Below, in pieces: positions 25,662 to 30,176 of a stretch of 35,042 bases of DNA. The notes under the pieces are model-generated. The model was given only the letters and a program-made list of their open reading frames with translations, was not told the origin of the DNA and did no database searches. The stretch is from assembly GCA_020723015.1 (NCBI GenBank), contig DYJR01000003.1:20269-55310 (forward strand), in the 5' to 3' direction. The stretch comes from Arcobacter nitrofigilis. Lineage in GTDB: Bacteria > Campylobacterota > Campylobacteria > Campylobacterales > Arcobacteraceae. The position numbers and the translations under genes were made by a program. The first letter of the stretch is position 1. Each line of letters starts with the position of its first letter.

Positions 25662-27193
25662 TTAGTCCATAACGATACAGTTTCTACCGCTTTGTTTTGC
25701 TTTATATAAGTTTTCGTCGGCTCTTTTTAGTAAAGTGTCTTTTGTATCTTCTTGTGTTGCTACTGCTACACCGAAGCTACTACTTATAAAACCTACTTTT
25801 GTAAAGTTGAATTGTGTTATAGCATTTTTTAGTTTGTTAGTTAGTAGTTGTAAATGTTTATTATTTTTATCTTTGACTAAAATAATAAACTCTTCACCAC
25901 CCTATCTATATATCATATCATTGCCTCTTAAAGTTTGTTTGATTGTATTTGAAAATTCTTCTAATACAATATCTCCTATATCATGACCGTAAGTATCGTT
26001 AACGTGCTTGAAATGATCTATATCGAATAAAATAAAACTATAATTTTGGAGCTCATCTTCTTCGATTATTTTTGATATGTCATAATTGAATTTTACCCTT
26101 GTATATACTTTTGTTAATGAATCAATATATGCTTTTTCATAAACTTATTTTTTTCATCAAAAAAGTACCTTAGCATATACATCATAAATAAAGATATAAA
26201 GAGAATATGGGAGAAAAATAGAAATAAGTAGTAAGCTTTTTGTTCCTGATAGATAGAATCATCTTCCATATAAGACACTACGTATGTGTTAACTGTTTTA
26301 TTAAAATCGCTTACAGGTAGAAAAGTTATTATATAATGTTTATTGCTTAGTTTTAAAGATTTTACAAAAGCTTTTTTAGTTTGCAAATCACGTTCTATAT
26401 AGATATTTTTTAGTTCTTTGTCTATATTTTCAAGTTGAATTTTATTGATATATCTATTATTTGTTTTAATAGAATTTTCTTCATAGAAGAAATTGCTGAT
26501 TGTTGACGGTTTATAATATTTATTGATTAATTCAGGGAATACTTTACTATTTACGTACTCTTTGGTTATCAGTAATTTGAATTCTAACGGGAAGTTTTTA
26601 TGTAAAGTAGTACTAAAAGTATCAAAAGAGTTTAAAAGCTCAACTGTTCCGTAAAATTCACCATCTAGTATTATAGGAAAAACATTTCTAAAACCGTTTA
26701 ATATTTTACCCTCTTCAAATCCGAATTGAGGTTTTTTTGTTTTATTTGCTTCAAAGATAGTAGCTCTAAAAGGAAACAAATTATCACCGTAGTTTTCTAC
26801 TGAATGAAACCTCAAAAAACTATTACCGACCTTATCGTGAAAATGAAGTTGTCTGAAACCATGATTCGTTAGTCTATCATAAGTAGGCTTGAGTATAGTG
26901 AGTAGTTTATTTCTTAACTCTTTTTGCTTTGTCTCGTTGTTTGTATTTATATCAATAAGAATAGATTTAATATTTTCGTTGTTTAAAATTTCATCTATAA
27001 CAATGGTAGAAGTTGTAGAATAAAAACTTATTACTGATTTTAACTGTGTATTGAGCCTTTTAATATATCTATCTTTTATATCTTGTATATTATAGTCTTT
27101 ATTATATGTAAGTGCCGATACCAAAACGACTTCTAATAAGATGAACAACAAGATAAAGTACATATTTTTCAAGTTAAACATTTTTGATTTCAT
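25662..27193 (-). pseudogene. Broken membrane sensor-diguanylate cyclase
   Basis: The leftward gene encoded a membrane sensor with a GGDEF domain. The intact first part (27193 to 26114, 359 residues) has membrane segments at about 11-30 and 318-345 around a periplasmic domain of Cache-like size. The GGDEF frame resumes one base out of phase near 26141-26143; restoring one base in an A-run there (T-run on the coding strand) would join the frames. It continues with AYIDSLTKVYTR, DIDHFKHVNDTYGHD and, after an in-frame TAG at 25902-25904, GGEEF. The stop replaces the tyrosine of RYGGEEF. The frame ends at 25662 with SGRNCIVMD. An RGND I-site is kept. The ATG at 27193 has AAGGA five bases before it. 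Two lesions argue for decay, although one could be a read error. Confidence 0.85.
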
Positions 27194-27212
27194 TTTTGTC
27201 CTTATAATGAAT

Positions 27213-27218
27213 ATTATA
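27213..27218 (-). promoter_or_regulatory. Possible -10 box for the sensor-cyclase pseudogene
   Basis: The minus strand reads TATAAT in GTTATAATATTC, 20 bases before the ATG, which would leave a very short leader. The box is intact although the gene is broken. Confidence 0.4.
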
Positions 27219-27271
27219 ACATAAAAAGTCAAAAACAATAAATACATATCCTTTATTTTTGGTTTTTATGT

Positions 27272-27307: not shown

Positions 27308-28063
27308 ATGAATTGGGAGCTTTTAAAACAACAACTTGTAGAATTTTTGAAAAGTGAAGTAAACAAAGCAGGGTTAAACAATGTGGTCGTAGGACTCAGC
27401 GGAGGACTAGATAGTGCCGTAGTAGCAGTTCTTTGTAAAGAAGCATTCGGCGATAACGTACATTGTGTTCTGATGCCTTCACACTATTCAAGTACGGCTA
27501 GTGTCGAGCATGCAAAAGAGCTTTGCGATAAGTTTAATTTATCTTATGAATTAGTAAGTATTGCACCTATGGTTCAAGCTTATGAGAGTTATATGGATGG
27601 GGATAAACTAAGAATAGGTAATTTTAGCGCAAGGATGAGAATGTCCGTTTTGTATGATATTTCTGCAAAACATAAAGCATTGGTTGTAGGTACTAGTAAT
27701 AAAAGTGAAATATTGTTAGGTTACGGAACAATTTTCGGGGATACGGCATGTGCAATCAATCCTATAGGTGAGCTTTACAAAAGTGATGAGTTTGAGTTTG
27801 CTAGATATTTAGGGATACCTGATAGTATTATATCAAAACGTCCAAGTGCCGATTTATGGGAAGGTCAAGCCGATGAAGATGAGCTTGGATTTACTTACAA
27901 AGAACTTGACACGGTACTAAAAGAGATTTTTGAAAAAAATAAAACAAAAGAAGATTTGTATAAAGATGGTTTTAGCCAAAAGATTGTAGAATTTGTCTTG
28001 TTCAGATATAATTCAAATGAATTTAAAAGAAGATTGCCTAAAATAGCACAAATAAATATTTGA
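27308..28063 (+). CDS. nadE: NH3-dependent NAD synthetase NadE
   Basis: NadE amidates nicotinate adenine dinucleotide to NAD using ATP, the final step of the pathway begun by NadA and NadC at the left of the window. The 251 residues form only the synthetase domain with no glutaminase, so ammonia is the donor. The ATP pyrophosphatase loop SGGLDSA is at 31-37, and GTSNKSEILLGYGTIFGD and RPSADLWEGQADEDELG follow. It leads a unit with the DegT-like gene (17 bases on) and lpxK. Confidence 0.95.
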   Translation: MNWELLKQQLVEFLKSEVNKAGLNNVVVGLSGGLDSAVVAVLCKEAFGDNVHCVLMPSHYSSTASVEHAKELCDKFNLSYELVSIAPMVQAYESYMDGDKLRIGNFSARMRMSVLYDISAKHKALVVGTSNKSEILLGYGTIFGDTACAINPIGELYKSDEFEFARYLGIPDSIISKRPSADLWEGQADEDELGFTYKELDTVLKEIFEKNKTKEDLYKDGFSQKIVEFVLFRYNSNEFKRRLPKIAQINI

Positions 28064-28080
28064 GGGTTACGGAGTAAAAT

Positions 28081-29217
28081 ATGACAAAAGAGATACCTTT
28101 TTATATCCCGTCGGTCGGTAAAGAAGAGATTGACCAGATTGATGAAGTTCTAGAACTTAACAGTGAGTCAAAAGTTGAAGAGTTTGAGAGTGAAATAGCA
28201 AACTTCGTAGGTGCAGAACATGCTATTGCTACGTGTAACGGAACCGCTGCAATGCATCTAGCTTTGAGTGCTATGGATTTAAAAAGAGGCGATAAAATAA
28301 TTATGTCCGTAAACTCTTTTCCCAATGTTCCCGAAGTTGTAAGACATTTTGATGCTGAACCTATTTTTATAGATATAGAGCCAAATTCTATGAATATTGA
28401 TTTAAATAAGCTTGATGACTATTTATCAAAAAATAAATCAAAAAAACTTAGAGGTGCTATAATATCTTTTATCGCAGGTCAAACTCCAGACCTTGACAAA
28501 CTTTATGAGATAGTAGCAAAGTATAAAATCGTTCTTATAGAAGATGCTACAAATGCTTTAGGGGTGACCTATAAAGATGATACTATAGGCTCACTAAAAG
28601 CTGATATGACTATTTTTTCTATGAACCCATCAAATGGTAGAAGTTTGGTAAGTAACGGTGGAGTTATAGTAACTAATAACGAAGAGTATGCACAAAGATC
28701 TAGATTATTAAGAACTCATGCTATCAGTACTACTTATGATGATTACGGTAATTTAGATTATATTTACGATGTGGTTGATATAGGATACAAGTATGATATG
28801 AGTGAGCTTGAAGCTGCATTTTGTCTGGCTCAACTCCAAAAAACAAACAAATTCATCAAAAGAAGAAAAGAAATAGCATCTATTTATGCAAAAAAATTGT
28901 CAGGTATTAAGCATGTAAATGTACCTTCCTTTAATGAAGAGCATATTTTTACTCAATATATTATCAAAATAAGTAAAAATAGAGATGCTTTTGCAAGAGC
29001 TTTAAAAGAAGAGGGTATCTCAACGGGGCTGAATTTTATTCCGCTACATCTTTTGAGCTACTATAAACATAAATACAATTTGAAAGTAACATCATATTTG
29101 AATGCTTTAAATTCCTATCAGCAAATATTATCGTTGCCTATATACCCATCATTGAGTGATGAAGATGTAAATTATATATGCGATAAAGTAATATCTATTG
29201 CTAATAAGTGGATATGA
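28081..29217 (+). CDS. DegT/DnrJ/EryC1-fold protein lacking the PLP lysine
   Basis: The 378 residues have the full DegT-family aminotransferase fold. Family marks are CNGTAAMHLALSA (52-64), EDATNALG (154-161), GYKYDMSELEAAF (about 255-267) and the C-terminal region. The PLP lysine, normally in a phrase like HPTKN before the glycine-rich turn, is missing: the matching stretch is MNPSNGRSLVSNGG (181-194), with Asn185 where lysine is expected. It is therefore unlikely to be a normal transaminase. It could be a dehydratase-like or non-catalytic relative (ColD uses histidine instead). The stop overlaps the lpxK ATG. The neighbours suggest a sugar or lipid A link, which is inference only. Confidence 0.8.
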   Translation: MTKEIPFYIPSVGKEEIDQIDEVLELNSESKVEEFESEIANFVGAEHAIATCNGTAAMHLALSAMDLKRGDKIIMSVNSFPNVPEVVRHFDAEPIFIDIEPNSMNIDLNKLDDYLSKNKSKKLRGAIISFIAGQTPDLDKLYEIVAKYKIVLIEDATNALGVTYKDDTIGSLKADMTIFSMNPSNGRSLVSNGGVIVTNNEEYAQRSRLLRTHAISTTYDDYGNLDYIYDVVDIGYKYDMSELEAAFCLAQLQKTNKFIKRRKEIASIYAKKLSGIKHVNVPSFNEEHIFTQYIIKISKNRDAFARALKEEGISTGLNFIPLHLLSYYKHKYNLKVTSYLNALNSYQQILSLPIYPSLSDEDVNYICDKVISIANKWI

Positions 29218-30176
29218 GATTTAAACAAAAATTAATACTTTGGATAGAAGAGTATCTTTTTTATCCAACGCCGTTACAACAACTTCTTAGTGCCTTACTA
29301 CTCCCCGTTACCGTTATTTATTGTTTTATTAAGTTTGTCCAAAAAAGTAGTGCAAAAACTTATGATTTCGGCATCAAAGTAGTAAGTATAGGAAATCTTA
29401 TACTAGGCGGTACCGGTAAAACACCTTTTACTATAGCTTTATCAAAACATTTTGCAAATACCGCAATAGTCCTTAGAGGATATAAAAGAAAATCCAAAGG
29501 GTTGTATGTGGTGTCCAATAAAGGTAAGATTCTTCAATCTCAGGAGATAAGCGGTGACGAAGCTTACGAGTATGCTTTGAGTTGTCCTGATTTGATAGTA
29601 ATCGTAAGCGAAAATAGAGGAGCAGGAGTTTTAAAAGCAAAAGAGCTAGGGGCGAAGGTCGTTTTTCTTGATGATGGATTTTCCAAAAGAGAGATTTTGA
29701 AATTTGATATTTTACTTCATCCTAAAAATGAGCCTACAAATCTTTTTTGTTTACCTAGCGGAGGTTATAAAGAGCCTAAAATAGAGTATCTAAATGCAGA
29801 TATAGTGGCACGTGAAGAGGTTGACTATAAAAGACATATAAATTTTTCTTTTTATAATGCTACAAATAGAACGTTTGTGAGAATAAATACGTTACCCGAA
29901 AATTTAGTATTAGTTAGTGCCATATCAAAACCGCAAAGGTTGTTTGAATTTTTGCCTGAGGGGATAAAATATGAGTTTTTTGAAGACCATTATGATTTTG
30001 TAAAAGAAGATATTATGCAAATTCAAGCAAAATATAATACACGCAATATAATAGTAACAAAAAAAGATTTTGTTAAGCTACAAAAGTTTGATATGGATTT
30101 ATATGTTATTGATTTGGAAGTTGAGATAAATACGGATATTATAGGGCAAGTATCTGAATATCTAAGTAGGTTATGA
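29214..30176 (+). CDS. lpxK: Tetraacyldisaccharide 4'-kinase LpxK
   Basis: LpxK phosphorylates the 4' position of the lipid A disaccharide at the inner face of the cytoplasmic membrane. The protein has about 320 residues. A hydrophobic N-terminal segment (about 23-43) gives membrane attachment, and the P-loop GGTGKT is at 65-70 after SIGNLIL. LDDGFSKREI matches the family's DDGFQHR-type motif. The ATG at 29214 overlaps the previous stop (ATGA), and I prefer it to the GTG at 29208. The heptanucleotide hairpin region follows directly. Confidence 0.93.
   Translation: MRFKQKLILWIEEYLFYPTPLQQLLSALLLPVTVIYCFIKFVQKSSAKTYDFGIKVVSIGNLILGGTGKTPFTIALSKHFANTAIVLRGYKRKSKGLYVVSNKGKILQSQEISGDEAYEYALSCPDLIVIVSENRGAGVLKAKELGAKVVFLDDGFSKREILKFDILLHPKNEPTNLFCLPSGGYKEPKIEYLNADIVAREEVDYKRHINFSFYNATNRTFVRINTLPENLVLVSAISKPQRLFEFLPEGIKYEFFEDHYDFVKEDIMQIQAKYNTRNIIVTKKDFVKLQKFDMDLYVIDLEVEINTDIIGQVSEYLSRL

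Follow-up and report, generated by a model that had tools for sequence, protein, structure and literature searches.

Background

ArnB, a sugar aminotransferase of the DegT/DnrJ/EryC1/StrS type, has as substrates the precursors from which lipid A modifications are made. Members of this family usually carry a Schiff-base lysine within the pattern FSFH-x-x-K-x5-EGG. The 3-dehydratases ColD, E1 and SpnQ have the same fold without the lysine, and a conserved catalytic histidine stands at the site (excerpts of PMC8987622). In the family member Spr1654, His173 contacts PLP O3' and Glu205 lies near the phosphate (excerpts of PMC5936713), and these residues served here as a guide to the pocket contacts. 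A genome paper on A. butzleri names a degT among other cell-surface genes (PMC6477937), which may or may not be the gene beside lpxK; a literature search of open-licence papers found none on the lpxK-side gene.

Here we describe this gene in a window of 35,042 nucleotides from Arcobacter nitrofigilis (the whole stretch of DNA that was analysed) and in related genomes. Judged from sequence, it is part of a family-wide, strongly held branch of DegT proteins that lack the lysine and whose gene position links them to lipid A synthesis. Family models name the gene an aminotransferase, and the textbook mechanism would be impossible in most of a bacterial class.

The gene and its locus

The gene lies between nadE and lpxK, with the following features.

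27308..28063, plus strand: nadE, NH3-dependent NAD synthetase, the usual upstream neighbour
28071..28074, plus strand: probable ribosome-binding site ggag, found by eye
28081..29217, plus strand: DegT-fold protein without Schiff-base lysine, 378 residues (ORF translation, PF01041 profile, orthologue alignment and AF2 model)
28282..28296, plus strand: residues 68-72, KRGDK, conserved charged loop specific to the orthologues (K68, R69 and D71 invariant in 151)
28342..28359, plus strand: residues 88-93, RHFDAE, conserved loop specific to the orthologues (R88 and D91 invariant in 151)
28543..28545, plus strand: Asp155, counterpart of the aspartate binding the PLP ring nitrogen (143 of 151 orthologues retain it; role from excerpts of PMC5936713)
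28615..28662, plus strand: residues 179-194, the old Schiff-base segment FSMNPSNGRSLVSNGG (translation and alignment)
28633-28638, plus strand: Asn185/Gly186, place of the missing lysine (translation and alignment)
28978..28995, plus strand: residues 300-305, NRDAFA, small-domain motif whose conservation is specific to the orthologues (conservation comparison)
29214..30176, plus strand: lpxK, lipid A 4'-kinase, its ATG overlapping the DegT stop; an alternative GTG start lies upstream at 29208

The open reading frame is genuine, being full length, preceded by the ggag site and strongly matched by PF01041. Its stop codon (TGA, 29215-29217) overlaps the in-frame ATG of lpxK (29214-29216) as ATGA, confirming the overlap described in the first-pass annotation. 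Upstream of nadE, a dCache-GGDEF diguanylate cyclase (25665-27247, minus strand) is broken in the window: its reading frame changes near 26132-26138, and a stop immediately precedes GGEEF. The related loci L037 and L038 have this gene open.

The full family fold that had been claimed for the protein is borne out by both profile and model. The protein scores 279.6 bits with PF01041 (DegT/DnrJ/EryC1/StrS; cut-off 19.8), and the AF2 model (pLDDT 86.9, pTM 0.87) has DesV, PseC, ArnB and similar proteins as its nearest solved folds, with Z of 41-43 and a best Z of 42.8 (DesV among others), which places it in the fold type I sugar-aminotransferase fold. Confidence is low at residues 214-219 and 223-235 and averages about 70 pLDDT at 181-190; the model is poor over the old Schiff-base loop and over region 211-240. 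Scores fall below the NCBIfam equivalog cut-offs for PseC (265.9 against 423.5 bits), ArnB (218.9 against 631), LegC (200.3 against 420) and WecE (139.1 against 434.85).

Orthologues, gene order and loss

The search covered 100 related genomes, 298 genomes of the class and GTDB contigs. A match at E <= 1e-100 was found in 179 of the 298 class genomes, the weakest being a diverged version in genus f13 g52, and part of the matching class genomes were fetched. The 186 orthologue loci encode 151 distinct proteins. Scores are bimodal, with orthologues at 442 bits or more and paralogues at 332 or less, and the orthologues form a single clade (SH-aLRT 100, stem of 1.13 changes per column). lpxK follows directly on the same strand at 183 of the 186 loci, the other three stopping at a contig edge, and nadE is the common upstream neighbour. 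The proposed link to lpxK is thus supported through gene order.

Two database records deserve mention. Locus L049 (CAMCYD010000168.1) is titled as a Helicobacter pylori PMSS1 MAG, yet its nadE-DegT-lpxK genes are Arcobacteraceae-like, with 53-65% identity to those of the window, and the title looks wrong. Genome G080, listed with 8% contamination, holds two lpxK-side DegT copies (L092 and L106), each with its own lpxK.

LpxK was found in 28 of the 29 genomes without a clear DegT-like orthologue, one of which holds a decayed version. Genomes that lack the DegT-like gene often have nadE and lpxK side by side with nothing between them. In gene content, the groups without the gene may resemble bacteria of the C. 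jejuni type, the H. pylori type and the Nautilia type. On the LpxK tree, gene presence changes state at least eight times, four of the changes being forced by starred branches. In one genome of f13 g52 a strongly diverged DegT-like gene (L215:250-1440, 276.7 bits) still lies between nadE and lpxK and keeps the KR and R-x-FDAEP motifs; in the LpxK tree it adjoins a clade that lost the gene.

The Schiff-base segment

The segment from F179 to G194 of the window protein contains no lysine. It is 16 residues long, against 15 in 13 of 14 paralogues, so counting from F179 puts the place of the lysine at Asn185, and counting back from the GG end puts it at Gly186. In the full MAFFT alignment, Gly186 occupies the column. 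The first-pass annotation, which put Asn185 at the lysine position, was therefore right that no lysine stands there, but Asn185 is the result of one gap placement.

Lysine is missing from the column in 144 of the 151 distinct Campylobacteria orthologues, so the window protein is no lone exception, and it is present in all 14 paralogues of one set and in all 34 fetched paralogues of a larger one. Nor does asparagine act as a conserved replacement, the column being mostly S, G, L or M across the orthologues (S43, G36, L21, M13, A8, V7, K7, T4 and others). With an entropy at the 97th-98th percentile it is among the most variable sites, while it is invariant in the 34 paralogues. As no residue is conserved there, no conserved acid or base occupies the place of the lysine. 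The neighbouring column 187 holds K in 72 orthologues and R in 18 (the window has Arg187), the rest having N, Q, S, T or others; it therefore does not supply another conserved lysine at the site. In 61 of the 151 there is no lysine anywhere between F179 and G194.

The seven orthologues with K at the column are L104, L107, L189, L190, L177, L112 and L119. Four belong to one genus, whose fifth member (L188) has arginine, and all seven are nested inside the clade rather than basal. These exceptions look incidental.

Other residues of the cofactor pocket

Asparagines 158 and 192 stand in the window protein in place of the histidine at PLP O3' and the phosphate-side glutamate. The His158 column is kept in one of 151 orthologues and the Glu192 column in none, against 12 of 14 paralogues for each. 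Other contacts are held better: the window has D155 (ring nitrogen), F80 (aromatic stack), S180 and T55 (phosphate), all four positions being kept in all 14 paralogues. Among the 151 orthologues, Asp155 is kept in 143 (the losses include L113, L118 and L120-L123), Thr55 in 128, an aromatic at 80 in 126 and Ser180 in 102, with 49 losses. In the 60 Arcobacteraceae-like orthologues, T55, F80, D155 and S180 are 94-100% conserved by weight, every sequence has N182, and 98% carry K or R at position 187, Lys187 alone accounting for about 78% by weight within Arcobacteraceae. Because the aspartate, phenylalanine, serine and threonine of the pocket remain, the Arcobacteraceae proteins may hold PLP or PMP non-covalently, or another phosphate ligand.

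Selection and newly conserved loops

Constraint on the gene is strong in the genus of the window. Against G001 (L256), dN/dS is 0.026 for DegT, 0.025 for PheS (a gene named by eye), 0.026 for aldolase, 0.066 for nadE and 0.136 for lpxK. The values against G002 (L258), where dS exceeds 1, are 0.058, 0.044, 0.049, 0.080 and 0.199 in the same order; those against G003 (L257), again with dS above 1, are 0.050 for DegT, 0.217 for nadE and 0.169 for lpxK. Of 11 further pairs with a value, 10 have a DegT ratio below that of lpxK, the exception being L193/L194 (0.118 for DegT, 0.111 for lpxK); L097/L100, the twelfth pair, yielded none. Constraint is weaker in some lineages, reaching 0.154 in L120/L121 and 0.118 in L193/L194. 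Loss of catalytic residues across the clade under purifying selection is, as far as sequences can tell, the pattern of a pseudoenzyme.

Compared with the paralogues, conservation rank has been lost at the lysine, histidine and glutamate columns among others, and gained at H278, R69, N300, D302, F90, R88 and K68. The mean entropy percentile is 11 in orthologues against 43 in paralogues for the loop before strand 72-76, and 10 against 50 for the loop before strand 93-97. In fold type I proteins these loop ends are found at a distance from the cofactor pocket, which suggests that the conserved loops form a new working surface. This is a lead, since the contrast in whole-face conservation between the PLP side and the opposite side of the central sheet was not significant (circular-shift p = 0.065).

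Links to LpxK and lipid A genes

A connection with LpxK itself is drawn from gene order. Distances between DegT proteins track LpxK somewhat more strongly than NadE: in 58 taxa the correlation of DegT with LpxK given NadE is 0.44 and that of DegT with NadE given LpxK is 0.16, with a shared species tree and no null distribution behind these values. No signature of gene presence was seen in LpxK: the 43 columns conserved beside the gene all stay at 0.6 or above in the group that lacks it. Likewise, no phyletic pattern emerged for LpxB (42 of 42 genomes) or the PF03279 acyltransferase (41 of 44). DUF374, which we take to be the LpxJ type, occurs in all 27 genomes that have the DegT-like protein and in 12 of 17 without (Fisher p 0.006); as the test on these 44 genomes makes no correction for kinship and a single family contributes three of the five negatives, the association is a lead only. 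The name LpxJ also occurs in PMC6148475. In G106, G108 and G129 (f13 g53), LpxB and the PF03279 acyltransferase score far above most other genomes searched (E to 1e-122 and 1e-104), which would fit acquisition from another source.

Possible functions

It seems moderately probable that the protein is a sugar aminotransferase which has retired from catalysis and now serves lipid A synthesis as a non-catalytic or ligand-sensing partner. Its ancestor would have been a DegT/DnrJ/EryC1/StrS sugar aminotransferase with an ArnB/PseC-like fold, whose gene joined a nadE-X-lpxK operon early in Campylobacteria. The clade-wide loss of the Schiff-base lysine and two other cofactor contacts, the strong purifying selection and the lasting place beside lpxK are seen directly in the sequences. 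For a protein without the lysine, a transamination that proceeds via an internal aldimine is very improbable. The protein, presumably co-translated with LpxK, may instead serve in lipid A assembly through the clade-specific loops K68-R69-x-D71, R88-H89-F90-D91 and N300-R301-D302, with the old pocket perhaps still holding a nucleotide sugar or phosphate ligand. Between such a partner or sensor and an enzyme that needs no lysine the evidence is uneven; for the former it comprises the missing conserved base, the loss of histidine and glutamate, the conservation gained elsewhere, the lpxK overlap and the distance correlation. Counting against it are the genomes that have LpxK without the protein, the lack of a matching signature in LpxK, the pocket residues retained in Arcobacteraceae, the seven orthologues with lysine and the weaker constraint in some lineages. 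A more far-reaching version, possible but doubtful, would make this Campylobacteria-wide pseudo-aminotransferase a regulator or scaffold dedicated to LpxK and co-translated with it. Acting as a lipid A checkpoint, it would read a nucleotide sugar or lipid A precursor via the old pocket and signal via the newly conserved basic surface, and would have been lost independently where LpxK now works alone. The first-pass annotation had offered a different reaction, a regulator or a scaffold; the clade-wide loss strongly supports a changed role and singles out none of the three.

Continued enzymatic activity is unlikely, though far from negligible: with PMP, PLP or another phosphate ligand bound non-covalently, the protein could catalyse a lysine-independent reaction, as ColD and E1 do with histidine. 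The retained pocket residues of the Arcobacteraceae-like proteins, the invariant N182, the K or R at 187 and a constraint equal to that on core enzymes are all in keeping with this, as is the use of histidine for lysine by ColD, E1 and SpnQ on the same fold (excerpts of PMC8987622). Against it stand the lack of any conserved residue at the lysine column, the disappearance of His158 and Glu192, the 49 losses of Ser180 and the loss of the pocket aspartate in L113, L118 and L120-L123. A ColD-like reaction in particular is not supported, because no conserved base replaces the lysine across the 151 orthologues.

Improbable too is a lysine that still works in some lineages (f18 g37, L112, L119 and L177) and was repeatedly lost elsewhere. 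The seven K-bearers would be its remnants, but their nested positions and the arginine of L188 speak against it, as does the loss of His158 in all but one and of Glu192 in all orthologues; both are missing in at least five of the seven. It is harder still to see an ordinary aminotransferase with its lysine shifted one residue to 187: Lys187 is frequent, above all in Arcobacteraceae, but the column is mixed, with arginine in the window and in 18 of the 151 overall, and 61 orthologues have no lysine in the whole segment. A decaying pseudogene, for which the diverged L215 beside a clade without the gene could be cited, is scarcely credible, since the DegT gene is constrained like PheS or aldolase in the genus of the window; most orthologues are also full length, and decay is already contradicted for the window's lineage.

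The retired-aminotransferase reading carries wider consequences. Selection in the window's genus is as tight as on core enzymes despite the lost lysine, and because the gene keeps its position ahead of lpxK, the idea of a regulator or partner for an essential step in lipid A synthesis can be tested directly. The branch is also a caution to anyone who would deduce amino-sugar chemistry from a DegT annotation.

Comparison with known systems

The loss of the lysine is shared with ColD, E1 and SpnQ, but these conserve a histidine, whereas the lpxK-adjacent clade conserves no residue at the site: the window has Asn185/Gly186 and column 186 is mainly S, G, L or M. The closest tree relatives outside the clade are lysine-bearing Campylobacterota DegT paralogues (L125-L130), with about 36-37% identity, a canonical TKTLSTGEGG and fetched loci without lpxK. 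PseC (UDP-4-amino-4,6-dideoxy-N-acetyl-beta-L-altrosamine transaminase; 2fn6) is the top NCBIfam match and a close structural one (Z 41.9), from which the window protein differs in its missing lysine and a score under the equivalog cut-off. ArnB (1mdo), whose model cut-off likewise lies far above the score obtained, has the same fold end to end (Z 41.1, rmsd 2.7, 354 aligned residues) and is the top PDB profile match (4.5e-64); it carries the PLP-site lysine (K188), histidine and glutamate that the orthologue clade has given up.
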